Assembly: GCF_009789535.1 (NCBI RefSeq)
Contig: NZ_WSUT01000001.1
Coordinates: 1 to 64,000 of the forward strand
From: Sphingomonas carotinifaciens
Lineage (GTDB): Bacteria; Pseudomonadota; Alphaproteobacteria; Sphingomonadales; Sphingomonadaceae
DNA: 64,000 nucleotides
Direction: 5' to 3'
Each line of letters begins with the position of its first letter. Within the stretch, counting starts at the first letter, position 1. This document shows, piece by piece, positions 9,475-21,743 of this stretch. The notes beneath the pieces were generated by a model. It made no database searches and was not told the DNA's origin. It was given only the letters and a program-made list of their open reading frames with translations. The position numbers and the translations under genes are program-made.

Positions 9475-10965
9475 TCAGACCGGCGCCTCGATATCGAAGC
9501 GGACGCCCTCCGGCCGATAGGCGATGGCAGGCACCCCGCGGACATGGGGGCCCAGCACCCGTGCGATCATCCGGCTGCCGAAACCGGTCCGCGCCGGCGG
9601 CACGACCGCCGGGCCGTCATGCTCGATCCAGGAGAAGGTGAAATACCGGTCCGCCCCGGCGCCGCACAGCGCCCAGCGGATCACCACCTGCCCCTGCGGC
9701 ACCGACAACGCACCATATTTGATCGCATTGGTCGCCAGTTCGTACAGCGCCATCGACAGCGCCAGCGTGATATCCGGCGCCAGCCGGATCGCCGGCCCTT
9801 CCGCGGAGAAGCGATGCCCGTCGCGGTCGATGAACGGCGCCAGCACGCGCGCGACGATGTCGCCGATCGTCGCCCCCTCGATCTCGTCCTGGATCAGCAG
9901 CTCGTGGGCGGCGCCCAGGCTGGCGATCCGCCCGGCCACCGAACGCCGCGCCTCCGCCAGCGAGGGGGCATCGCGCAGCGTCTGGCTGACCACCGCGCCC
10001 ACCGTCGCCAGCGTGTTCTTCACCCGGTGGGTCAGCTCGCGCGCCAGCACCGCACGGTGCTCCTCGGCGAACTTCCGGTCGGAAATGTCGGTCGAAAAGC
10101 CCGCCACCATGCGCGGCGCGCCGTCCGGTCCGCGCTGCATCTCGGCACGCGTCCCCACCCAGCGCTGCTCGCCCGCCGGCGTCAGGATGCGGAATTCGGT
10201 CGCGCAGGGGTGGCCGTGCCGAATGGTGGCGACCAGCACGCGGCGCATCTGCCCGGCATCCTCGGGATGGATGCAGGCCAGCAGGTCGGCATAGGTGAAG
10301 GGCCGCTCGGCCATGCGCCCGAACAGGGCCTTGCAACTGTCCGACGCGACCAGCTCGCGCGTGTTCAGGTCGAACGACCAGGTGCCCAGCCCCCCCGCCT
10401 TCAACGCCAGCGCCAGCCGCACCTCGCGCTCGGCCAGTGCCGCCTCCCGCCGCGCCACCATCGCGGTCAGCCTCTCGCGATCCTCCTGCAACCGCGCCAG
10501 CCGGTGCCGCTCCACCGTGACGTCCAGTTGCGACGCGACGAACCAGCGCGGCGCCCCTTCGGCGTCGCGCACCGGCGTCACCTTCAGCCGGTTCCAGAAC
10601 GGCGTGCCGTCACGGCGATGGTTCAGCAGGTCGATCTCGATCGGCTCGCCCACCGCCACCGCGGCGCGCAGCCGTGCCACATCCGCCGCATCGGTCAGCG
10701 GCCCCTGCATGAACCGGCAGTTGCGGCCCAGGATTTCGGCGGCGGGATACCCGGTCAGCGCCTCGAACGCCGCGTTGACATAGACGATCGGCGTATCGGG
10801 CAGGCACGCATCGCACACCACCATCGGCGCCTGCGACACCGCGAACGCCGCCAGGATGGGGTCGTCCGGGTCGAGCCGCCGCACAAAGGCGTCCAGCGCC
10901 GCGCGGATCGCGGGTGGCGCGTCAAACGGCCGGGTCGGCGTCGGGGCGAGGGGCGGTCGGTCCAA
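9475..10965 (-). CDS. LOV-PAS HWE-family sensor histidine kinase
   Basis: A 496-residue cytosolic photoreceptor kinase. A LOV domain (about 35-145) has the flavin-binding motif GRNCRFMQG with the photo-adduct cysteine Cys83 and the closing FVASQLDVT strand. A helical linker, a second PAS domain (about 185-300) and a kinase core follow. The phosphoacceptor region is ELTHRVKNTLA and the ATPase domain has YELATNAIKYGALS and the W-x-E triad (FSWIEHDGP) that defines HWE kinases. Members of this class often feed the PhyR/EcfG general stress response. Start is a weak TTG at 10965; no better one exists upstream. It follows the next LOV kinase by 66 nt, likely one operon. Confidence 0.9.
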   Translation of the reverse strand: MDRPPLAPTPTRPFDAPPAIRAALDAFVRRLDPDDPILAAFAVSQAPMVVCDACLPDTPIVYVNAAFEALTGYPAAEILGRNCRFMQGPLTDAADVARLRAAVAVGEPIEIDLLNHRRDGTPFWNRLKVTPVRDAEGAPRWFVASQLDVTVERHRLARLQEDRERLTAMVARREAALAEREVRLALALKAGGLGTWSFDLNTRELVASDSCKALFGRMAERPFTYADLLACIHPEDAGQMRRVLVATIRHGHPCATEFRILTPAGEQRWVGTRAEMQRGPDGAPRMVAGFSTDISDRKFAEEHRAVLARELTHRVKNTLATVGAVVSQTLRDAPSLAEARRSVAGRIASLGAAHELLIQDEIEGATIGDIVARVLAPFIDRDGHRFSAEGPAIRLAPDITLALSMALYELATNAIKYGALSVPQGQVVIRWALCGAGADRYFTFSWIEHDGPAVVPPARTGFGSRMIARVLGPHVRGVPAIAYRPEGVRFDIEAPV

Positions 10966-11031: not shown

Positions 11032-12651
11032 TCACCCGATCCCGGTCGGGCCGTCGATCACCTGTCGCACCTTCACCGCCAGGTCGCTGCGCTTGTACGG
11101 TTTCTGAATCAGCTCGAACTCGGCGCCACGGGCATCGACCCGCTCGATCGAGGACTCGGCATAGCCCGTGGTCAACAGCACGCGCATCCTCGGGCGACGT
11201 CGCTTCACCTCGCGTGCCAGCATCACGCCGTTCATCCCGCCCGGCATGATCAGGTCGCTGAACAGCAGGTCGATCGCGTCGCTGCCATCCAGCACGCGCA
11301 GCGCCGCATCGGCATTCTCGGCGCGCAGCACGGTGTAGCCGAACTCGGTCAGCACCGCCTCGGCATAGTCACCGACATCCACCTGATCCTCGACCAGCAA
11401 CACCGTCTCGGTGCCACGCTTGTCGACCAGCGACCGGGGCATCGGCGAGCGTTGCGGATCGGTGCCCGCATCCTCACACGGGAACAGCATGCGCACCGTG
11501 GTGCCGTGATCTTCCTCGGAATAAAGCCGCAATGCGCCGCCCGACTGCTTCATGAAGCCATAGACCATCGACAGGCCCAGGCCGGTGCCCTTGCCCTGAT
11601 CCTTGGTGGTGAAAAAGGGTTCGGTGACCCGCGCCAGAATTTCCGGCGACATGCCCGTGCCCTCGTCGGTGATCGCCAGCATGACGTAATGGCCCGGTGG
11701 CAGTTCGCCAAAGCCCTTGTCGCCTGCCTCGATCGTGCGGTTGGCGACGTCGATGGTGATCGTGCCGCCGTTCGGCATGGCATCGCGCGCGTTGATCAGG
11801 ATGTTGATGATCGCCAGTTCGGCCTGGGTCGGATCGATCCGCGCGTTGCAGGTCGGCCCTTCGTGGCGAATGCGGATGGTGATCGCACCCCCCGCCGTCC
11901 GCTCGATCAACGGCTGAAGCTGGTCGACCAGATCGACGAGGTTGACGATCCGCCCCTGCAGCTTCTGCTTGCGCGAAAAGGCGAGCAGTTGCTGGGTCAG
12001 CGTCGCGCCGCGTTCCGCCGCCTGCAACACCGCGCGCATCGATCGTGCCGCCTTCTTCCGGTCGAAATCGCCGTCGCGCTCCAGATTGTTCAGCACGATG
12101 TCGCCGAACCCCTGGATCACAGTCAGCAGGTTGTTGAAATCATGCGCCACCCCGCCGGTCAGCTGGCCGACGGCCTCCATCTTCTGCGCCTGTCGCAGCC
12201 CTTCCTCAGCATCCCGCCGCCGCGTCACGTCGAGCTGCGATGCAAAGAAGTAGATCAACGCACCGTCGACGTCATAGACCGGCGAGATGAACAGCGCATT
12301 CCAGAACGCCGCGCCATTCTTCTTGTAGTTCAGCACCTCGACCGAGGTTTCGCGCCGCTGTTCGACCGCACGCCGCACCTCCGCGATCGTGTCGCGGTCG
12401 GTGTCGGGGCCTTGCAGCAGCCGGCAATTCTGCCCGATCAGTTCGTCCCAGCCATAACCGGTCATGTTTATGAAGGCCGGATTGGCGAAGACGATGGGGT
12501 TGTCGTGCTGGTTGGGATCGGTCACGATCATCGGCATCCGCGTCGTCTTCACCGCGGCAAAGAAGATCGTGTTATGATCGCTTCCCATGTCATGGTCGGC
12601 ATGACCGGAAAGATGAGGTGGCGGTCCGCCTTTCGATTTTTCCGGTGTCAT
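11032..12651 (-). CDS. LOV-domain hybrid histidine kinase
   Basis: A 539-residue cytosolic protein. The LOV domain (about 30-145) contains GQNCRLLQG with the adduct-forming Cys75. Next come a classical HisKA domain with the His box GGVAHDFNNLLTVIQG, a HATPase domain (NILINARDAMPNGG, DEGTGM, GKGTGLGL) and a C-terminal receiver domain (about 420-535) with phospho-acceptor Asp in LLFSDLIMPGG and Lys in QKPYK. Blue light should drive flavin-cysteine adduct formation and change autokinase activity, with phosphate passed to the fused receiver. It lies upstream of the HWE LOV kinase, so two different photosensory kinases are made together. An EcfG-like promoter precedes it. Confidence 0.92.
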   Translation of the reverse strand: MTPEKSKGGPPPHLSGHADHDMGSDHNTIFFAAVKTTRMPMIVTDPNQHDNPIVFANPAFINMTGYGWDELIGQNCRLLQGPDTDRDTIAEVRRAVEQRRETSVEVLNYKKNGAAFWNALFISPVYDVDGALIYFFASQLDVTRRRDAEEGLRQAQKMEAVGQLTGGVAHDFNNLLTVIQGFGDIVLNNLERDGDFDRKKAARSMRAVLQAAERGATLTQQLLAFSRKQKLQGRIVNLVDLVDQLQPLIERTAGGAITIRIRHEGPTCNARIDPTQAELAIINILINARDAMPNGGTITIDVANRTIEAGDKGFGELPPGHYVMLAITDEGTGMSPEILARVTEPFFTTKDQGKGTGLGLSMVYGFMKQSGGALRLYSEEDHGTTVRMLFPCEDAGTDPQRSPMPRSLVDKRGTETVLLVEDQVDVGDYAEAVLTEFGYTVLRAENADAALRVLDGSDAIDLLFSDLIMPGGMNGVMLAREVKRRRPRMRVLLTTGYAESSIERVDARGAEFELIQKPYKRSDLAVKVRQVIDGPTGIG

Positions 12652-12788: not shown

Positions 12789-14045
12789 CTATGCCTTGAC
12801 GGTCGGCCATGATCGTTCATGGCCGCGCCGGAACGCCTCGACATCCGCGGGATCCTCCATCGCTGCGGCGACCCGCACCGCCTGTCGCTTCGCCATCGCC
12901 GCGATCGATCCTCGCGCGACCGGCAGACCGGCATGCAGCGCGGCCAGCGTGCTGCTCAGGCGCAGCGACACCTCCACCTCCTTGCTGCCTTCGCGCAGGA
13001 TCGGGCGGAATGCATCGTCCAGCATGTCCTCGATGCTCGGACGCTCCAGATAGACGGGATATCGCCCGCATTGCGCCTCCCCGTTCGGCACGGCATCCCG
13101 CCCCAGCGTCAGCAGCACGCGCAACAGCGCGTTCAACACCTCGATGGCGGTGCCCGGATCATTGGTCGCCGGTGCCAGGGCGCGGCTGGCGATTTCGGAC
13201 AGCGCGATCAGGCCCAGCCGCGGGTCCTGCTCGAAACGTCGATGCCGCTCGATGGTGAACGCCCCCGCCAGCGCCCGGCGCACCGCGTCGTCCGGCTGCC
13301 CCTCCACCCGCATCATCGCGCGTGCAGGGTGAACCATCGTACCGGGCAGCACCACGACATGGACGATCAGCCCATGCTTCTCGGCCATGCGGCCAAGGGC
13401 CGGTACGTCGATATGGGTGACATAGCCGGTGGCCGGGCTGATGATGGCGGTCGCATCGTCCGGCACCGCGATCGCCGCGCGGCCGCACAGCACCGGATGC
13501 GCCGCGAAATCCGCCATCGCCGTGGTCGCGGCCGCCTCCACCCGGTCGATCACGTCGGCCATCCGGCCGAAACCGGTGATATGGCCGATCCAGCGCAACA
13601 ACGTGACGACCACCAGCAGTATGATGACCACGGTCGCGGCGAACAGGATGATCCGCCCGTCCGAGCCATAGGCGCTCGTCTTCAACCCGACGATCCCCAC
13701 CATCGAAAAGACGAAGGCGCCCAGAAAGGTCGACAACGCGTTCTGGGAGGTGGAGTCGCCCAGCATCAGTTGCGTCGCGCGCGGCGTGCCCAGTTGCGTC
13801 GCCGATGCATAGGCGCTGACCATCGCGGTCAGCGAGAAGGTGGTCACCGCCAGCATGCTGGACGCCATGATCTGCAGGATGGTGCCGACCGAATCCTGCC
13901 CGATCTGCACGTCGAAGTCATAGGGCAGGTACGGCGTGACGATACCGGCCAGGATCGCCAGCGCGACGCTGCACAGGCTGATCAACGCGGCCCGGAACCA
14001 CACCTGCCGGACGATCCGCGTCACGATCCACGACCAGCGGCCCAT
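12789..14045 (-). CDS. DUF2254 family inner-membrane protein
   Basis: A 418-residue membrane protein with four transmembrane helices in the first 160 residues (around 17-36, 58-80, 107-125, 130-150) and a large soluble C-terminal domain. The SMLAVTTFSLTAMVSAYASATQLGTPRA stretch between helices 2 and 3 is the DUF2254 hallmark. The family has no established function. Its start lies 9 nt after the methyltransferase stop, so it is probably the last gene of the operon that begins at 17683, which gives the operon a membrane component. Confidence 0.82.
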   Translation of the reverse strand: MGRWSWIVTRIVRQVWFRAALISLCSVALAILAGIVTPYLPYDFDVQIGQDSVGTILQIMASSMLAVTTFSLTAMVSAYASATQLGTPRATQLMLGDSTSQNALSTFLGAFVFSMVGIVGLKTSAYGSDGRIILFAATVVIILLVVVTLLRWIGHITGFGRMADVIDRVEAAATTAMADFAAHPVLCGRAAIAVPDDATAIISPATGYVTHIDVPALGRMAEKHGLIVHVVVLPGTMVHPARAMMRVEGQPDDAVRRALAGAFTIERHRRFEQDPRLGLIALSEIASRALAPATNDPGTAIEVLNALLRVLLTLGRDAVPNGEAQCGRYPVYLERPSIEDMLDDAFRPILREGSKEVEVSLRLSSTLAALHAGLPVARGSIAAMAKRQAVRVAAAMEDPADVEAFRRGHERSWPTVKA

Positions 14046-14054
14046 GGCCCTCTC

Positions 14055-14642
14055 CTATACGCCGCGTCGCATGGTACAGCCAAGCACCACCCAGCGTCCA
14101 TTGCGCCTGACGACGCGCACGCGCCAGCGCCGCCCCGTCGCCGCCAGGAACGCGCGGTGCAGCGGGGCGGCATGTTGGGCGAAGTCGTGGAAATCGATGC
14201 GGTGATGCGCCAGCACCAGCATGCCGCCCGGCGCCAGCACGCGCGCCACGTCGCGCGCGGTTTGGACCATCTCGCGCGGGGACAGGTAATATAGCAGTTC
14301 GGCGATCACCACCGCCTCGTAATGCGCCCTCGGCAGGCGCGCCGGCACCGCCAGGCGCAGCGCACGCGCCCGGCCCGCCCGGGGCCTGATCGCGCGCGCC
14401 ACCAGTGCGGTGCCGCCGGCGGTCGCCTCGGTCGCATCCAGCCGCAGCGCGCGGGGGCCGATGGCGGCGCTGTTCGATCCGTTGCCCGCCGCCAGTTCCA
14501 GCACCCGCCCCCATGGCCCCGTGCCTAGCGCGTGCAGGATCGCGGCCCGCTTCACCCCCTCGTCCCGGTTGGTGAAGGTACACCACGGGTCGTCGCTTCG
14601 GGCAAAGGTGTTTTCGAACCCGGCGAGCGTGATCGGCTTCAC
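14055..14642 (-). CDS. SAM-dependent methyltransferase
   Basis: A 195-residue class I methyltransferase. Motif I for SAM binding is VLELAAGNGSNS (about 47-58), motif II an acidic residue in LRLDATEA, and motif IV IAELLYYLSPREM (about 115). The core ends with LVLAHHRIDFHDF and a basic tail. The region before motif I (RSDDPWCTFTNRDEGVKRAAIL) recalls NodS-like and sugar-modifying methyltransferases. The GTG start overlaps the PIG-L stop as GTGA. With its neighbours it probably methylates a sugar or amino group exposed by the deacetylase; the acceptor is unknown. Confidence 0.82.
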   Translation of the reverse strand: MKPITLAGFENTFARSDDPWCTFTNRDEGVKRAAILHALGTGPWGRVLELAAGNGSNSAAIGPRALRLDATEATAGGTALVARAIRPRAGRARALRLAVPARLPRAHYEAVVIAELLYYLSPREMVQTARDVARVLAPGGMLVLAHHRIDFHDFAQHAAPLHRAFLAATGRRWRVRVVRRNGRWVVLGCTMRRGV

Positions 14643-15283
14643 CGCCGCACCGCCACGAAACATTCCTGCGGCCGGCTGAACGCCGCGATCTGGGCGCGCG
14701 TCATGGTGAAGCCCGCGGGATCGTCGGTGATCCGCCCGGTCTGCGTCGCATAGCGGCGGATGGCATGGCGCTTGGCCAGCCGTTCCTGCGCGGTCAGCGG
14801 CATCGGTTTCGCGCCCGGCAACCGGTTGCCCGCCGGCCACACCGGATAGGCGAACCAGCGCAGGCCCGGCACCGCGACCTGCGCCGCGCACGCCGCGACC
14901 ACGCGGTGGTCGGCATGGTCGTCGTCGATCGCGGGGACCAGTGCCGCCGCCGGCCGCCGCACCCGGGCCGCTGCGCGCCCGATACCATGCCGCACCTTGC
15001 CGGCATGCGCCGCCAGGTCTCCGTCGGGCAGGTTCAGAAACGTTACCGCGCCCGCCGCGACCCCGATGCGACGCATCGCGGCTCGCGTCTCGCGCCGCCG
15101 CTCCGCCACCAGCCGTGCGCGCGGCCATGCCGCGCTGCCGGGGTGCGAGGCGCGCCCGTCGGTCACCACCAGCACCTGCACCGCCACGCCTCGCCGGCGC
15201 AGCCGCGCGACCAGCGCGTGCGCCGCGATCGCCTCGTCATCGGGATGCGGCGCGACCACCAGCAGCGATTTCGGCGTCTTCAC
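14639..15283 (-). CDS. PIG-L/LmbE family zinc deacetylase
   Basis: A 214-residue hydrolase of the PIG-L/LmbE/MshB family, which removes N-acyl groups from amino sugars. The zinc and catalytic motif VVAPHPDDEAI is at about residues 9-19, and the second zinc site is DDDHADHRVVA (about 117-127). The loop between them has VTDGRASHPGS, as in the family. It has no signal peptide, so it should act in the cytoplasm on a sugar-linked precursor. GTG start at 15283 overlaps the stop of the dehydrogenase-like gene (GTGA), and its own stop overlaps the methyltransferase start the same way. Confidence 0.9.
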   Translation of the reverse strand: MKTPKSLLVVAPHPDDEAIAAHALVARLRRRGVAVQVLVVTDGRASHPGSAAWPRARLVAERRRETRAAMRRIGVAAGAVTFLNLPDGDLAAHAGKVRHGIGRAAARVRRPAAALVPAIDDDHADHRVVAACAAQVAVPGLRWFAYPVWPAGNRLPGAKPMPLTAQERLAKRHAIRRYATQTGRITDDPAGFTMTRAQIAAFSRPQECFVAVRR

Positions 15284-16254
15284 AACGCCACCCGCAGGAT
15301 GCCCGCCGCCACCGCCGCGCCCACCTGCATGCGCTGGGCATCGGGCGCGGGCTGGCGCAGATAGGTGGACAGGTCCGCGATCCGCGCCGCGATCGGGTGG
15401 GTGGTGAACTGCGCCTGCACCCCCACCGCTTCCTGCGCCAGCGCGATCACCTGCGTGCCTGCGCCGTACACTGCCGCCCGCGCTGCCGCCACCAGCGGCA
15501 GGCGCGCGTCCGGATCGTCGAACCACCCCTCGCCCGCGGCGCGCATCGCTGCATTCGCCCCCTGCGCCAGACCGTACATCGCCGCCAGCCGCCCCGCCTG
15601 ATGCGGATCGCTCGCGCGCTCCGCCGTCACCAGGTGATCGCGCGCATGCTCTACGACCGCCGCGATCCCGCCCGCCTGCACCGCCGCGAACCGCAACGCT
15701 CCCCCGACGAACCACGGCTCGCGCACATAATCCCCGGGCACGCCGATCAGGTCGTCCGCCGTCACCGCGGCCCCCTCCCACCGCACCACATGGCTTTCCG
15801 ACCGCTGCATCCCCGCCACCTGCCACGCCCCGCGATCGATCGCCGGCACGGTCCTCGCCATGTCCACCAGCACCAGCTGCCGACCGCCCTGCGCGTCCAC
15901 CGTCACCAGTGCATGGCTGATCAGCCCCGCCCCCGACGCGAAGCTCTTGCCCCCGGACAGCCGCATGTCCGTCAGGCTCAGCGCCTCGCCGGGCAGGTCG
16001 GCGTTCCACACGCCCAGGGTCCCGCCCCGCGCCACCAGCGCCGCCACCCGCGCGCGCTGTTCGTCGCGGGCATAGCGCATCACGATCTGCGCCGCATCGA
16101 CATGCCCTTCGAACAACCGCCCCAGCGGCAGGTCCTCACGCCCGACCGCGAACAGCAACCGCAACAGCTGCAGCATCCCCGCCCCGCTTGCCGGATCCCC
16201 CAGGCTGTCGAGCTGCTGCGTCAATTCGGCAATACGCGCCGTTATCCCGCTCAC
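15280..16254 (-). CDS. Short acyl-CoA-dehydrogenase-like protein
   Basis: A 324-residue protein with the acyl-CoA dehydrogenase fold in order: N-terminal helices, a middle beta domain (LGVWNADLPGE...LSGGKSFASGAGLISHALV) and a C-terminal four-helix region (VGGALRFAAVQAGGIAAVVEHAR; QLFTTHP-like VGVQAQFTTHPIAARIADL). It is shorter than the usual 380 residues and lacks the common GGxGFxxE end, so it may be a specialised oxidase or dehydrogenase acting on a small or carrier-bound substrate. It is locked into the operon by GTGA overlaps on both sides. The exact reaction cannot be predicted. Confidence 0.7.
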   Translation of the reverse strand: MSGITARIAELTQQLDSLGDPASGAGMLQLLRLLFAVGREDLPLGRLFEGHVDAAQIVMRYARDEQRARVAALVARGGTLGVWNADLPGEALSLTDMRLSGGKSFASGAGLISHALVTVDAQGGRQLVLVDMARTVPAIDRGAWQVAGMQRSESHVVRWEGAAVTADDLIGVPGDYVREPWFVGGALRFAAVQAGGIAAVVEHARDHLVTAERASDPHQAGRLAAMYGLAQGANAAMRAAGEGWFDDPDARLPLVAAARAAVYGAGTQVIALAQEAVGVQAQFTTHPIAARIADLSTYLRQPAPDAQRMQVGAAVAAGILRVAL

Positions 16255-17258
16255 GCCGCCACCGCCTGCGCATCGCTCAGCTTGGCCAGTTCCACTTCCG
16301 CCAGCGCCAGCGTCACCGGTCGCATGCCGCCCGGCGGGACCGGCACGACCCGCATCGCAAAGGCTTCCGCATTGGGGCAGTCGCGGGCGACCCCGATCAG
16401 GTGATCGGTGGTCAGCCCGATCGGCACCGTGCGCGCATCGATCGTCCCGTCCCTGAACGCCCCCCTCGCCGCTGCCTGCATCCGGTACTGCCACGCTGCA
16501 TCCGCTGGGTGCGCGACCTCCACCCCGCTCCCCCTGTCCAGCGCGCGCAACATATGCGCCAGCCCGCCCTCCGCACGCCCGTCCCGCCGCGCCGAGGTCC
16601 GCACCACCGCCCCCGCATCCCGCCGCACCCGCCACCCACCCCGCCCCGCATCATCCACAAACCGCGCATCTTCCCCGCTCGCCAGCGGCGCGAAGCCGCC
16701 CAGCGTGCGATAGACGCACCCGCGCACCCCCAGATTGGCGCCGCTGGCATGATGATGCGTCACCGGCGCTTCCCAGCCCACCGGATCCAGCACCCGGCGC
16801 AGGGCGAACAGGGCGTCGTAATAGCGCTCGACCCGGTCCTGCAGCAGCGAGGCGACACCACCCTCGCGCACCACACGCCCCGCCACGATATCGGCGCGTG
16901 CGAGCCCGGCCAGCATCGCCTCCACCCAGTCGGGCGCCGGCCGGCTGTCCGCGTCGGTGGTCAGGATGATATCGGCGCCCCCCGCCATCGCCATGGCGCG
17001 CCGCCGCGCCAGACCGGCATTGGGCATCCCGCGATCAACCTCGGCGAGATGCACGCGGGGGCGCGCCACGGATCGATAGCGCTCGGCCACGCGCGCGCTG
17101 TCGTCGCGGCAGCCATCGAGCAACAGGCACAGGGTCAGCGTACCCCCCGCAGGCAGGACCAACGCCTCCACCGCCTCGAACAGATGCGGCAACGCTGCGG
17201 CCTCGTCCCGCACCGGCACGCAGATCGCGATCGACGACCGCGCAAGCCCGCTCGTCAA
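16251..17258 (-). CDS. Family 2 glycosyltransferase
   Basis: A 335-residue GT-A fold enzyme. The nucleotide-sugar domain begins IAICVPVRDEAAALPHLFEAVEAL, has LLLDGCRDDS, then GLARRRAMAMAGGADIILTTDADSRPAPDW with a DAD-type metal-binding motif, and later GANLGVRGCVYRTLGGF and the acceptor-side GEDARFVDD (ED motif). No transmembrane helix, so it works on a soluble or membrane-surface acceptor. The TTG start at 17258 overlaps the upstream stop as TTGA, the same coupling style as the rest of the operon. Sits just before the dehydrogenase-like and deacetylase genes. Confidence 0.85.
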   Translation of the reverse strand: MTSGLARSSIAICVPVRDEAAALPHLFEAVEALVLPAGGTLTLCLLLDGCRDDSARVAERYRSVARPRVHLAEVDRGMPNAGLARRRAMAMAGGADIILTTDADSRPAPDWVEAMLAGLARADIVAGRVVREGGVASLLQDRVERYYDALFALRRVLDPVGWEAPVTHHHASGANLGVRGCVYRTLGGFAPLASGEDARFVDDAGRGGWRVRRDAGAVVRTSARRDGRAEGGLAHMLRALDRGSGVEVAHPADAAWQYRMQAAARGAFRDGTIDARTVPIGLTTDHLIGVARDCPNAEAFAMRVVPVPPGGMRPVTLALAEVELAKLSDAQAVAA

Positions 17259-17683
17259 AGAGCGATCTCGCCTTCGTCCTTCCCGTCCCAGTAGCGGATG
17301 CGTTTGGCATGCACCGCGATCATGACGATGCCGGGCGTATCGATGCCCTCGGGGAAATAGCGGTCGAGATCCTTGGTCCAGTGATCGGCGAACTGCGCCT
17401 TGTCCTCGATCAGCGTCGCGCGTCCCTCGACCGCGACGAACAGCGGCGGACCGCCCAGCATTCCGACCGCGCCGGTATAGCTGAGCAGGACGCGGGGATC
17501 GGCCTGGATATCGGCGACCTTGCGCGTGTCGCGATAGGAGAAGAAGTAGCTGTCGCCGCGATAGTCGACATCGCCATTGTTGCTCATCGGCCGGGCGCTG
17601 GTGCCGTCATTTCCGGTGACCAGCATCGCGAAGTCCAGCTTCGCCATCTTGGCGGACAGGTCCTTCAGCGTCAGTTCCGACAT
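17255..17683 (-). CDS. Pyridoxamine-phosphate-oxidase-fold stress protein
   Basis: A 142-residue FMN-binding split-barrel protein of the general stress protein 26 group. Typical segments are MLVTGNDGTSARPMSNNGDVDYRGDSYFF (first strands and FMN contacts), KVADIQADPRVLLSY and VAVEGRATLIEDKAQFADHW, with the C-terminal IRYWDG. Such proteins bind FMN or FAD without being biosynthetic PNPOx. GGAAGGATGGACG precedes the ATG at 17683. It is the first gene of the coupled operon and has an EcfG-like promoter 48 nt upstream, in line with a stress role. Confidence 0.85.
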   Translation of the reverse strand: MSELTLKDLSAKMAKLDFAMLVTGNDGTSARPMSNNGDVDYRGDSYFFSYRDTRKVADIQADPRVLLSYTGAVGMLGGPPLFVAVEGRATLIEDKAQFADHWTKDLDRYFPEGIDTPGIVMIAVHAKRIRYWDGKDEGEIAL

Positions 17684-17730: not shown

Positions 17731-17755
17731 AACGAGCCGGCGGGTCACAAGTTCA
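17731..17755 (-). promoter_or_regulatory. EcfG-like promoter for the stress-protein/glycosyltransferase operon
   Basis: On the minus strand TGAAC (17755-17751), 16 nt, then CGTT (17734-17731). This is the EcfG consensus GGAAC-N16-CGTT with one change in the first base. The expected start lies about 40 nt before the ATG at 17683. The gene it would drive belongs to a family often in stress regulons. Confidence 0.5.
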
Positions 17756-17787: not shown

Positions 17788-18543
17788 TCAGCGGCGCGGC
17801 ATTCCCGTCGCCGCCCACCACACGCCCCCCATCAGATGCGCAAGATACTGGGGGTCACGGTACATTTCGCCGTTATGGCCAAGCGTCGTCACAAACACGC
17901 GGCCCTTTTCATGATCGTGGTGCCAGGCGATCGGATGGTCGCGCCCCATCGGCAGGGACACCTGCCCCGGCCAGATTTTGCGCGGGTCGTAACTGTTCTC
18001 GTCCACCGACAAGACCGTGCTGATATTCACCTTATATGGATTGGTGGTGGTGTAGAACTCATCGCTCCATATCCAGCGATCGGGCACGCCAAAGGTTGCG
18101 GGATGGCCGCTATCGGTGATGGTGATGATGCCGGTCTGTAACATCGGATGCACGCCGACCCGCCGGCCCACCAGCCGCTCATACCAGGGCCAGGCCCCCG
18201 CCGGCGTGATCGCGGCGCGGTGGACGACGATGGCGTTGCCGCCGCCGCGCATATACGCCTCGAACTTCGCGCGCTGCGCGGGGTTCAGTTCCTCGCCGGG
18301 CGTGTTGAGGAACATCACCGCAGCATATTGCGACAGATCGCCGTCGAACGTCTCGGTCTTGTTCGTCCACACCATCTCGAACGCGTGCAGCTTGGCCAGA
18401 TGCTCCAGGCTGTCGCGTGCGATCGGGATGTATTCGTAATGATATTTGTTCGGAATGGCGAGGACGAGCAGCTTGTATTGCGCCTGTGCCCAGGCGGTGC
18501 CGGGGGCGAGAAGCGCAAGGAAAGCGATGGCAAGGCGGATCAT
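17788..18543 (-). CDS. Secreted ThuA-domain protein
   Basis: A 251-residue exported protein: signal peptide at 1-19 (MIRLAIAFLALLAPGTAWA) and then a ThuA/trehalose-utilisation fold, a glutamine-amidotransferase-like domain. Family marks are KYHYEYIPIARDSLEHLAK, the Phe/Leu-Asn-Thr turn AVMFLNTPGEELNPAQRAKFEAYMRGGGNAIVVH and the end RVFVTTLGHNGEMYRDP. ThuA-type domains are linked to carbohydrate catabolism but their reaction is unsettled. Its ATG overlaps the stop of the upstream GH55-like gene (ATGA), so the two proteins are made together and probably act on the same polysaccharide in the periplasm. Confidence 0.88.
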   Translation of the reverse strand: MIRLAIAFLALLAPGTAWAQAQYKLLVLAIPNKYHYEYIPIARDSLEHLAKLHAFEMVWTNKTETFDGDLSQYAAVMFLNTPGEELNPAQRAKFEAYMRGGGNAIVVHRAAITPAGAWPWYERLVGRRVGVHPMLQTGIITITDSGHPATFGVPDRWIWSDEFYTTTNPYKVNISTVLSVDENSYDPRKIWPGQVSLPMGRDHPIAWHHDHEKGRVFVTTLGHNGEMYRDPQYLAHLMGGVWWAATGMPRR

Positions 18544-21500
18544 GGGCGCACCCGGTACAGCGAATGGTGGGTCAGGATGAACAGCGTGGCCTTGTCCGCC
18601 CCGCCGAACACCAGTTGCAGCGGTCGTTCGGGCACGTCGATGCGCCCCAGCGGCTTACCGTCGGCGCCGTGGACGAAGACCTGCCCGTTGGCGATGAACA
18701 CACGACCCTGTCCATCCGTGGCGACGCTCTCCCCGCCCCGATCGGTAAAAGGTTTCAGGTCGGTCAGCGCACCGTTCGCGCCGACCACCGCGCTATAGGT
18801 ACGCGCTTCCGACGCATTGGCGACATGGATGCGCGTCCCCACCCGCCCCTGGACGAAGCCATAGCTGTCGAGGGCATCGGAAAAGCGCCGCCCGCGAAAA
18901 TCCGCCGGCCCCTGCTGGAAGGTGCGGAATGCGGGCAGCACCACGCTGCCATCGGGCGAGACATAACCCTGCGCCAGCGGCCGGGCGACATCGCGGGCGA
19001 ACATCTCGGCCAGCGTGGTGAAGCGCATCGTCCGGGGATCCAGCTGGTCGCGGAACTCGCCATTGTTCCACCAGTTGCCCGGCAGCGCGACCGCAGCCCC
19101 GCCCGCCGCCAGCGGCGTCGGCGCGATCACCGCGAGTTCCGTTTCCGGCGTGCCGGGGCGGAAGGCGTAGACGGTCCCGTTCCGCCCGGCCGAGGACAGC
19201 ACCATCAGATTGCCCGAGGCGTCCGCGGTCAGGTTGACGGGATCGAGCGTATTGTCGCGCTCGATCCCCAACCCGGCGCCCTCCGACCAGCGATAGATGC
19301 GCTGCTGCGTCCGGTCGACGAAGTAGAGCGTACCGTCCGGTGTCGCCGCGCCCCCGCCTGCGGCATCGAACCCGCCCGCGACCTTCTCGACCATTACACA
19401 GCGCGCGGACGATCCCTCCGTCTCCTGCCGTTCCGATCGCGCGAAGTCGAAGCACGAGGCCGTCGCCTGCCCATCTCCGCCGACCGGTGGGGATGAACCC
19501 ACGTCGAATGTCGCGAACTCCCGCTCGCGCACCTCGCCGCCGGCTCCCATGTCGCGGATCGCGTTCTCGTACGGGAACTTGTTCGCGCGCAAAAAGGTCG
19601 CGCAGCCATTCTCGTCGCACGTCCCCAGCCCGCTTTCGGCATTCACATGGACGTTGCGGAACCGGATGTTCTTCGCATTGTACAGCGTCACCGCCGCCGG
19701 CTGCGCCTTGAAGGTGCGCGTCACCCGGTATGCGTGCAGGTTGCCGATCAGGATGTCGCGGGAATCGCGGATCTCCAGCGCCACCGCATCCTTGCTCTCG
19801 CCACCCTCCTCCTCGGTCTGCGGCGCGAGCAATTCCCAGTTGGCGACGCGGTTCAGCGCGATCTCGACCCGGCCGTGATGCTCGGCCGACATCTGGTAGA
19901 CATGGCCCGGCGTCTCGGTGTCCGACACGTACAGCCCGGCCTGCGCATAGGTGTTGGGCGTCCAGATATTGTTGAACGTGCCCCCGCCGCCCTTTGTCAC
20001 CCACAGGCTGGGATATTGCGCGTCCCAACGCTTGGCCGGATCGGCATCGCCGGTCGCATTGGCGTTGTACGGGATGAAGCGCTTGCCGCCGCCCAGGTCA
20101 GTGCCGTGCCCGCCCTGGAACTTAACGTCATCCACCAGCGAGTTCGCGCCGGCCGTCCACAGCAGCGCGGTCGCGCGCGGATTGATCCCGCCGGTGAACA
20201 GGCCCAGGCCGGAGACGATCGCATCGCCCCCTTGCGCCGTCTCGACCAGTGCCTTGGGCGCGCCGACGCCCTGATAGGCCGGGGTGCCGTCGGGCAGGAT
20301 GATCTGCGTCAGATTGGGGTGCAGCGCGACCAGCACGCTGTCCGGCTTCAGGCGCAGGGTATCGGTGACGATGTAGCGCCCGGCTGGGAAGTAGACGACG
20401 CGGTGCGTATCGATCGCGCGCTGGATCGCGGTGGTATCGTCGGTGCGGTCATCGCCCTTCGCCCCGCCGTCGCGGACGTTGAACCAGTCCGCCGTCGCCG
20501 GCAACGCGCGCAGCGCGGGCGCGCGGCGTTCGGGCAGGGCCGGCACGGCCGCCGCCTCCATCACCGTCCGGTATTCGCCCATCCGGCCATAGCCGGGGAC
20601 CGCCAGCCCATAGTTGAACGACGCGACCCGGTATGCGGCGCCCGTGCCTGCGACACGGCGCCCGCTGTCGCGGAAGCGTGCAAAAAAGGGCGTGCGCGCG
20701 GCAAGCGTATTTTCGAACGCGATCTGGGTATAGGCATTGCCTTCGTTCGACACGATCACGCCTGCGCGCGACACATTCTCGAACCGCACATCCTTGCCGA
20801 ACAGCCAGTCGCCATAGCCCTTGTCGATCTCGATCCCGACGGGCGTGTCCCGGATCGCGACGTTGACCATGGTCAGCCCCGCCTCATGCTCGCGGATCGC
20901 CGCCTCGCGCTGCCCCTCGAACGTCGCGTCGATCAGCGCGAACGGCCACGCCGGCGATGGCTTTTCGGTCAATATGCCGTAGCGTCCGCCCCGGAAATGC
21001 AGGTCCTGTCCGATATTGCCGACCTGGTAGAGCGCCGCCAGCCCCGATCCGATGTCGAAATTCATGTGGCTGACGAACGCATGCTGCGCGGCGTGGAAAC
21101 GGATCGCGGTCGCCGCGGCGTTGTTCGCGCCGATGCTCACATCGATGTTGCTGATCCCCGAATAGAAGGTGCCGGGATTGGCGTCGGCGATCTGCGGGTC
21201 GAACGGCACGCTGCCCTGCACCGGGAAGGGCACGCGCGTCCGCCCGGCCACGCTGCGCCCGTCGTCGCTGCGCACCCCCTCGCCGTTGCGCCGCGCACCG
21301 GCAAAGACGATCATCGTCGCCAGCCCGCGCTGGAAGCCGGGCGTGCGCGCGCCCAGCACGATGCGCGGCCGCGTCTCCCCCGTTCCGTACAGCCGCACAC
21401 CCGGCCACAGGAAGACGGTGCGCGTGATCCGATAGGTGCCGGCGGGAAGGAAGACGATACCCCCGCCGCCCTGGTCCGCCGCGGCATCGATCGCCTGCTG

Positions 21501-21659
21501 GATCGTGGCCGTATCGTCCGCCCGCCCGTCGCCGACGCCGCGTACCGTCGTCGCCCGCGCATCGAGCGGCGCGGTCTGCAACACCGACACCCCTTGCGCC
21601 TGCGCCGCCCCTGCGCTTGCGAGCAGTATCGCCAGTGTACCAAGTGCCATCCGCTTCAC
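18540..21659 (-). CDS. GH55-like beta-helix protein with C-terminal propeller-like region (copy 1)
   Basis: A 1039-residue exported protein. After a signal peptide (ending AGAAQA) come two pectate-lyase-superfamily entry motifs: GDGRADDTATIQQAID (about 43-58) and GDDRTDDTTAIQRAID (about 400-415). This tandem parallel beta-helix layout is that of GH55 exo-beta-1,3-glucanases. A conserved CDENGC motif lies near residue 680. The last 280 residues repeat short units such as TLYFVDRTQQRIYRW, NLTADASGNLMVLS and VATDGQGRVFIANGQV, as in NHL/SMP-30 propellers. The GTG start at 21659 is supported by GAGGAG 8 nt before it. Catalytic residues could not be assigned by eye. Confidence 0.82.
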   Translation of the reverse strand: MKRMALGTLAILLASAGAAQAQGVSVLQTAPLDARATTVRGVGDGRADDTATIQQAIDAAADQGGGGIVFLPAGTYRITRTVFLWPGVRLYGTGETRPRIVLGARTPGFQRGLATMIVFAGARRNGEGVRSDDGRSVAGRTRVPFPVQGSVPFDPQIADANPGTFYSGISNIDVSIGANNAAATAIRFHAAQHAFVSHMNFDIGSGLAALYQVGNIGQDLHFRGGRYGILTEKPSPAWPFALIDATFEGQREAAIREHEAGLTMVNVAIRDTPVGIEIDKGYGDWLFGKDVRFENVSRAGVIVSNEGNAYTQIAFENTLAARTPFFARFRDSGRRVAGTGAAYRVASFNYGLAVPGYGRMGEYRTVMEAAAVPALPERRAPALRALPATADWFNVRDGGAKGDDRTDDTTAIQRAIDTHRVVYFPAGRYIVTDTLRLKPDSVLVALHPNLTQIILPDGTPAYQGVGAPKALVETAQGGDAIVSGLGLFTGGINPRATALLWTAGANSLVDDVKFQGGHGTDLGGGKRFIPYNANATGDADPAKRWDAQYPSLWVTKGGGGTFNNIWTPNTYAQAGLYVSDTETPGHVYQMSAEHHGRVEIALNRVANWELLAPQTEEEGGESKDAVALEIRDSRDILIGNLHAYRVTRTFKAQPAAVTLYNAKNIRFRNVHVNAESGLGTCDENGCATFLRANKFPYENAIRDMGAGGEVREREFATFDVGSSPPVGGDGQATASCFDFARSERQETEGSSARCVMVEKVAGGFDAAGGGAATPDGTLYFVDRTQQRIYRWSEGAGLGIERDNTLDPVNLTADASGNLMVLSSAGRNGTVYAFRPGTPETELAVIAPTPLAAGGAAVALPGNWWNNGEFRDQLDPRTMRFTTLAEMFARDVARPLAQGYVSPDGSVVLPAFRTFQQGPADFRGRRFSDALDSYGFVQGRVGTRIHVANASEARTYSAVVGANGALTDLKPFTDRGGESVATDGQGRVFIANGQVFVHGADGKPLGRIDVPERPLQLVFGGADKATLFILTHHSLYRVRP

Positions 21660-21743
21660 CGCCGCCGTCTCCTCAAGGCCGAAAAAAGAGGTCCCGGCCG
21701 AAGCCGGGACAGGTTGGGGAACCATCAAACCATTGGAATAGCG

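Follow-up and report, generated by a model that had tools for sequence, protein, structure and literature searches.

Enzymes of the kinds treated here are known from several pathways. In Nod factor synthesis the products of nodC, nodB and nodS, a family 2 glycosyltransferase (GT2), a deacetylase and the methyltransferase NodS, act beside an acyltransferase. In the mycothiol and bacillithiol pathways (MshA/B and BshA/B) a glycosyltransferase, the GT4 synthase, is associated with a PIG-L deacetylase. The 64,000-nucleotide stretch of Sphingomonas carotinifaciens DNA analysed here (contig NZ_WSUT01000001.1, positions 1 to 64,000; hereafter the window) contains a cassette of four genes coding for a GT2, an acyl-CoA dehydrogenase (ACAD)-like protein, a PIG-L/LmbE-type de-N-acetylase and a NodS-like S-adenosylmethionine (SAM)-dependent methyltransferase (MT). 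Like the Nod factor genes, the cassette combines a GT2, a de-N-acetylase and a NodS-like methyltransferase. Unlike them, it has no NodA acyltransferase, carries PIG-L in place of NodB (except in Rubrobacter) and includes an additional ACAD-fold enzyme, and its MT lies far below the NodS equivalog cut-off. It shares with the mycothiol and bacillithiol pathways the pairing of a glycosyltransferase with a PIG-L deacetylase, but the glycosyltransferase is a GT2 and not a GT4, and the core holds no cysteine ligase. In Acinetobacter baumannii, ACICU_02432-02435 bear the same four annotations and, read from 02435 downwards, follow the order ACAD, PIG-L, MT, glycosyltransferase (GT) of the Acinetobacter ursingii locus L143, a likeness of annotation and order only; in that operon, unnamed in PMC5660220, the GT gene is the last whereas it is the first in the window. 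In the openly licensed literature searched, neither a description of the four-gene combination as a system nor a function for it was found. The component types were already known.

The four genes form a widely spread and tightly coupled cassette, probably one biosynthetic unit. A family-alignment scan of named genomes confirmed 502 stretches, and the best 80 loci, leaning to Sphingomonas, were used for comparison. By tblastn, the order GT2-ACAD-PIG-L-MT was found on one strand in 71 of these 80 loci, the nine others being L044, L045, L046, L047, L059, L060, L086, L089 and L096, two of which, L045 and L047, run into contig ends. The full order reaches Salinisphaera (Gammaproteobacteria), Sulfitobacter, Hyphomonadaceae and Aurantimonas and its relatives, and a metagenome-assembled genome of Puniceicoccaceae (Verrucomicrobiota) is among the loci that keep it. 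The first-pass annotation of the window had read the strict coupling as a sign of a stoichiometric complex or of one pathway; a conserved pathway unit is supported, as this neighbourhood check shows that the order extends beyond close strains, while the complex is a candidate reading. In plasmid records, the constant part is ACAD-PIG-L-MT (the core), detected in Deinococcus (including D. radiodurans), Bradyrhizobium, Komagataeibacter, Roseomonas, Paracoccus and Acinetobacter and, by tblastn, in Nostoc, while the GT differs in type, side and strand. The Rubrobacter plasmid locus L139 has ACAD and MT and no PIG-L alongside.

To compare with unrelated dehydrogenases, 398 Pseudomonadota genomes were sampled, with at most five candidates scored per genome. 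The ACAD family was present in 34 of them at E<=1e-25; the weakest match was 6.6e-51 and none was listed between this value and 1e-25, leaving a clean gap. Thirty of the 34 family matches yielded loci (about 4 kb), with wider regions for 15 of the 34 genomes, and 25 generic ACAD loci from a class-wide search, with similar flanks, served as control. Within 1.5 kb of the family ACAD, MT was found in 29/30 loci, PIG-L in 27/30 and both in 26/30, versus 0/25 for PIG-L and 0/25 for MT around the generic ACADs. The gene junctions of the relatives are also conserved: a 4-nt overlap was observed at 56 of 74 GT>ACAD junctions (42 of these with ATG), at 73 of 75 ACAD>PIG-L junctions (20 with ATG) and at 68 of 75 PIG-L>MT junctions (37 with ATG). 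Because such overlaps recur across divergent loci, they are not due to chance. The non-ATG starts, pointed out at first reading, are real for the four genes behind the operon's first gene in the window; since the start codons vary among relatives, they are no conserved feature. Furthermore, the pairwise distances of ACAD, PIG-L and MT correlate (r 0.68-0.79 for 55 loci thinned for similarity); the unthinned values for all 102 loci with the three genes are higher (r 0.88-0.93), shared ancestry accounting for part of the correlation. A fusion of ACAD and PIG-L was found in a large protein database (P0078), an arrangement which a sequencing error across the 4-nt overlap could mimic. In Deinococcus, the ACAD-like proteins (L128, L135, L137, L138) possess an additional N-terminal stretch of about 400 aa, for which no Pfam match was obtained in L128, the one tested.

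Several observations weigh against so strict a unit. ACAD and MT occur without an adjacent PIG-L in 6 of 112 loci (L086, L089, L139, L179, L186 and L192), a substitute being visible only in L139, and both PIG-L and MT are missing in L047, L059, L060 and L140, the first of which lies at a contig end. PIG-L and MT of D. radiodurans are separated by a helicase gene read from the opposite strand. The GT gene varies in kind, in where it sits and in its strand, and L140 and L141 have none nearby. Alternatively, the four genes could be loosely related and carried on a mobile stress island, packed as in any ordinary operon and sharing no joint pathway; the presence of the cassette on plasmids and its patchy distribution (the ACAD-like gene is in 16 of 41 genomes searched, the window's own included, all of its genus) are compatible with such an island. 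This explanation is nevertheless very improbable, given that the partners adjoin 27-29 of 30 family loci versus 0 of 25 control loci, that ACAD, PIG-L and MT diverge in a correlated manner and that the core stays constant across phyla while its neighbours change.

To judge from its sequence, the ACAD-like protein is most likely a flavin monooxygenase-like member of the ACAD fold and not a true acyl-CoA dehydrogenase. True acyl-CoA dehydrogenases carry their catalytic glutamate in an EGT-type motif. EG[TS] was present in 1 of 127 family sequences (near-identical ones included) versus 24 of 25 generic ACADs, and the control ACAD devoid of it, L117, is itself oxygenase-like. Neither Pfam nor NCBIfam models matched the window protein. 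In a search with the family profile, the best matches were DszC (1.4e-23), TdsC (1e-21) and MsuC (5e-19), with DnmZ and a nitrososynthase lower, and the C-terminal RDLxxYLRQ stretch of the family aligns with the DszC C-terminus. The group D flavin monooxygenases DszC and MsuC and the amino-sugar nitrososynthases are the nearest to the family by sequence and have the same fold, although the identity with DszC is only about 20%. The AlphaFold model (pLDDT 93.8) displays the ACAD superfamily fold in structure comparison, the top row of which is a carrier-tethered cysteine dehydrogenase; DnmZ, the nitrososynthase and 3m9v/4kcf are not among the 50 matches listed and may stand lower.

Other data weigh against this reading. 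Some relatives of the protein do match Pfam Acyl-CoA_dh models, a true ACAD (4u83, 2e-18) comes just behind the monooxygenases in the profile search, and structure comparison cannot separate the two classes, the Z scores being tied at about 30-31. No dedicated flavin reductase was identified, no systematic search having been made, and at one Tianweitania locus (L082:348-5212) apparent acyl-CoA dehydrogenase, enoyl-CoA hydratase and thiolase genes stand, by eye, upstream of the cassette. A Pyr_redox_2 protein adjoins the Rubrobacter core. A role in beta-oxidation was rejected, since EG[TS] is absent and the core contains no gene for an electron-transfer flavoprotein (ETF), a thiolase or a ligase. 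The window protein had been described as a dehydrogenase-like protein lacking beta-oxidation partners; with the catalytic glutamate motif missing and flavin monooxygenases as nearest sequences, it is likely no acyl-CoA dehydrogenase, and the annotation of the ACAD-like family would need correcting.

The three other enzymes retain the residues expected of their families. In PIG-L, H13, D15, D16, H123, D125 and H126 are invariant, in agreement with the HPDDE and HxDH metal residues of PIG-L enzymes. The top NCBIfam model for this protein is BshB1, below its cut-off, and identification as BshB1 or MshB was rejected (46.8 vs 182.5 bits and 23.8 vs 224.35 bits, respectively, against the curated cut-offs). 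The GT2 family conserves T101, D102, D104, E196 and D197 (DxD/ED motifs); a PDB search gave no relative for the protein at E<=0.01, and the mycofactocin enzyme MftF was dismissed with 46.6 vs 280 bits for the curated equivalog. In the MT family, D18 P19 W20 and E28 are invariant. The MT profile matched PDB 4isc (6e-51; labelled only 'Methyltransferase'), NodS 3ofj (9e-32) and then phosphoethanolamine N-methyltransferases. The window MT itself remained under the cut-off of PF05401 NodS, and assignment as the NodS nodulation methyltransferase (NF041650) was rejected at 27.5 vs 300 bits, the one relative tested reaching 88.2. At the Rubrobacter locus L139, a Polysacc_deac_1 protein occupies the place of PIG-L; NodB belongs to the same superfamily. 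As N-methyltransferases lead the named relatives of MT and a polysaccharide deacetylase once replaces PIG-L, exposure of an amine followed by its N-methylation is the simplest reading. Against it, PIG-L enzymes act on other amides too, the MT target could be an oxygen rather than a nitrogen, and the substrates are those suggested by family membership.

The cassette is stress-associated by its neighbourhood, by published expression data and, in the window, by a promoter-like site. Within up to 8 kb on each side, 24 of 80 genome loci carry a KatE-type catalase gene, as do 5 of 17 plasmid loci, although the match in one plasmid locus is weak (L134, 27%). For the 50 of the 80 loci in whose genomes catalases were counted (72 in all, the split catalases of G698 and G708 counted once), KatE lay within 8 kb of 15 versus 0.33 expected by chance; the Poisson estimate assumes an independence that close Sphingomonas copies violate. 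The placements are of at least six kinds, judged by eye from side, strand and adjacency. Ku occurs in 4/80 and LigD in 5/80 loci, and both adjoin the Bradyrhizobium locus. Dps is near the cassette of Deinococcus sp. AJ005, and a general stress protein near that of Komagataeibacter. L180 holds trehalose phosphate synthase and phosphatase, L178 has alpha-amylase and isoamylase-type proteins, and L191 a Mn-catalase with DUF892. In A. ursingii L143, the cassette is flanked by KatE, DUF421 and a PF14518 protein on one side and, on the opposite side, by trehalose-6-phosphate synthase. PMC13232832 reports that A. baumannii is protected from desiccation by KatE and the heme-oxygenase-like protein DtpC. 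L143 resembles the DtpC-KatE operon of that species in having KatE together with a heme-oxygenase-like PF14518 protein as large as DtpC, likened by family and size, and differs from it in arrangement, DtpC-KatE being a separate operon in A. baumannii (PMC13232832). It should be set against this association that in 56 of the 80 loci the stretch covered contains no KatE and that the loci are not phylogenetically independent. A stress context had been suggested at the outset, and KatE, Ku/LigD and trehalose genes in the vicinity of some loci, together with co-regulation published for A. baumannii, bear it out.

PMC5660220 lists 33 genes whose expression dropped by more than 10-fold in two A. baumannii mutants that depend on colistin, one of them with lpxC broken by an insertion. 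ACICU_02432-02435 (glycosyltransferase, SAM methyltransferase, LmbE and ACAD-related protein), marked there as one operon, were down 31- to 62-fold, and the same list includes catalase ACICU_01426 (22- and 31-fold) and OtsA/OtsB (12- to 50-fold). PMC6240043 places a glycosyltransferase, a methyltransferase, an LmbE-like protein and an acyl-CoA dehydrogenase beside the photoreceptor gene blsA. Annotation and gene order were the basis for assigning both sets to the family; an A. baumannii ACAD (P0177) is 68% identical to that of L143. These data represent co-regulation in damaged-envelope mutants and not a phenotype of the operon, and the passages of the two papers give no function for the genes.

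In the window, the operon is headed by a gene for a flavin mononucleotide (FMN)-type protein preceded by an EcfG-like promoter. Both were correctly placed there by the first-pass annotation; their inclusion in the unit did not hold. The FMN gene occurs in 4 of 80 relatives besides the window, within a small Sphingomonas subgroup, and was on that count rejected as an integral member: gene and promoter are a Sphingomonas add-on outside the unit. EcfG-type promoters have a GGAAC box in their consensus, from which the TGAAC of the window differs by one base; the standard GGAAC form is absent in the window. TGAAC-N16-CGTT has a sole match there versus 0.28 expected and, because 25 of 100 shuffles carry one, this match is weak taken alone. 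All four other FMN-headed loci (L021, L033, L036, L043) carry the same boxes, with a diverged spacer, 92-95 nt upstream of the point where the FMN match begins. Loci devoid of the FMN gene mostly have no EcfG-like site upstream of GT2. GGAAC-N16/17-CGTT was detected in 3 of 71 upstream regions versus 0.14 expected; a general EcfG promoter for all loci was rejected on this count, and a few of the sites may be real. A NepR match is present in the source genome, with one stop reported inside the matched frame. Examples of EcfG-type promoters are given in PMC6599016, where a general-stress-protein-26 gene of S. melonis Fr1, not shown to be the ortholog of the FMN gene, is listed as EcfG-dependent.

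The conserved order and coupling, the family assignments and the catalase enrichment are direct observations, and from them we infer the chemistry. We give even chances to a unit, linked to stress and desiccation defence, that assembles an amino-sugar glycoside, removes its acetyl group, N-methylates it and oxidises it. The GT2 would move an N-acetylamino sugar (GlcNAc-like) onto a small acceptor, PIG-L would strip the acetyl group to leave a free amine and the NodS-like MT would N-methylate the exposed amine. The ACAD-fold flavoprotein would oxidise the same molecule, most likely as a monooxygenase using reduced flavin and O2 (N- or C-oxygenation). The product could be a soluble modified amino-sugar glycoside, made on stress entry together with trehalose, KatE and proteins that join DNA ends; the steps may follow another order. 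Out of the modified glycolipid or small amino-sugar metabolite first put forward, an amino-sugar product is thus kept as best guess. A bolder version, tentative and rather unlikely in our opinion, is that an N-methylated, N-oxidised amino-sugar glycoside made by the one translationally coupled cassette is a so far undescribed cross-phylum stress metabolite protecting against desiccation or peroxide alongside trehalose and KatE, in Sphingomonas, other Pseudomonadota, Deinococcus radiodurans and Acinetobacter. Under the labels 'acyl-CoA dehydrogenase', 'PIG-L deacetylase' or 'SAM-dependent methyltransferase' stand genes that belong to one cross-phylum unit, with its overlaps kept and often located among defences against desiccation and oxidation; if the product is a protectant, it would be an overlooked small molecule of extremotolerant and hospital bacteria.

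Two other products have to be considered. The substrate may be a saccharide of the envelope or one linked to a lipid (glycolipid, capsule or lipopolysaccharide decoration), the stress effect being exerted via the surface: the GT2 would add a HexNAc to a carrier, PIG-L would deacetylate it, and MT and the flavoprotein would tailor it. Additional glycosyltransferases in the clusters L133 and L136, a UDP-galactopyranose mutase near two Deinococcus loci and the fall of the operon in the two colistin-dependent A. baumannii mutants, one of them lpxC-broken (PMC5660220), are compatible with this possibility. We hold it to be on the unlikely side, for the conserved core has no flippase, polymerase or ligase gene, the genes that recur nearby code for catalase, Ku, LigD and trehalose functions and not for the envelope, and Deinococcus, Nostoc and proteobacteria have the core in common despite very different envelopes. 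Still less probable is a true dehydrogenase or desaturase acting on a sugar-attached acyl group, acyl-CoA or carrier-bound, and yielding, as Nod factor synthesis does, an amino sugar with an unsaturated N-acyl chain. The clear ACAD fold, the carrier-tethered cysteine dehydrogenase at the top of the structural comparison and the analogy with Nod factors point in that direction; EG[TS] is absent in 126 of 127 sequences, the core has no acyltransferase, ETF or CoA-ligase gene and the nearest sequences are oxygenases, all of which weigh against it.

The coordinates and the four 4-nt overlaps of the minus-strand operon, as originally claimed, were confirmed from the sequence and the open reading frame (ORF) listing (Table 1).

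Table 1. Features of the operon and its immediate surroundings (positions in the window).
Feature	Position	Strand	Evidence and remarks
FMN-type Pyrid_ox_like gene	17255-17683	minus	PF16242, 88.4 bits; operon head, lineage-specific
GT2 glycosyltransferase	16251-17258	minus	PF00535, 46.9 bits (cut-off 23.3)
ACAD-like: ACAD-fold flavoprotein, probably monooxygenase-like	15280-16254	minus	core; profile, fold
PIG-L/LmbE-type de-N-acetylase	14639-15283	minus	core; PF02585, 88.9 bits (cut-off 28.2)
MT: class I SAM methyltransferase, NodS-like	14055-14642	minus	core; Methyltransf_25 and Methyltransf_11 barely above cut-off
Overlap TTGA, FMN stop/GT2 start	17255-17258	minus	sequence and ORF list
Overlap GTGA, GT2 stop/ACAD start	16251-16254	minus	4-nt overlap kept in 56/74 relatives
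Overlap GTGA, ACAD stop/PIG-L start	15280-15283	minus	kept in 73/75 relatives
Overlap GTGA, PIG-L stop/MT start	14639-14642	minus	kept in 68/75 relatives
EcfG-like promoter TGAAC-N16-CGTT	17731-17755	minus	also at 4/4 other FMN-headed loci
DUF2254 membrane protein	12789-14045	minus	PF10011, 306.7 bits; directly downstream, neighbour, not core

One of the 80 relatives, the close locus L018, has a DUF2254 gene near the core, as does the distant locus L186 (14276-16056; G448, Pseudomonadota outside the window's class), where it adjoins DUF421 and a KatE match (34%); L186 thus shares with the window, in which DUF2254 follows MT, a DUF2254 gene near the core. Upstream of the operon (17788-21728, minus strand), genes for a ThuA-type protein and a large pectate-lyase-like/SMP-30 protein constitute an apparently separate polysaccharide-use locus.

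Some loci present further peculiarities. In L178, a second PIG-L gene (11033-11938) follows the GT, in the locus that also carries the alpha-amylase and isoamylase-type genes. In L192 (5357-7823), genes for a luciferase-like monooxygenase and a second ACAD-superfamily protein directly precede the family ACAD and MT, PIG-L being absent. Sphingomonas-like loci (L020, L047, L060) turn up in records whose titles name Bacillus sp. 2B10 and Arthrobacter sp. TPD3018; these records are probably mislabelled or mixed. Downstream of the operon, the minus strand of the window carries two genes for PAS sensor kinases (9475-10965 and 11032-12651); one kinase is of the HWE type, and GRNCRFMQ and GQNCRLLQ are LOV-like signatures in them. 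LOV signatures were found in 4 of 112 loci, and L130 and L185 have a gene for a BLUF photoreceptor close to the cassette, as does A. baumannii with blsA (PMC6240043).

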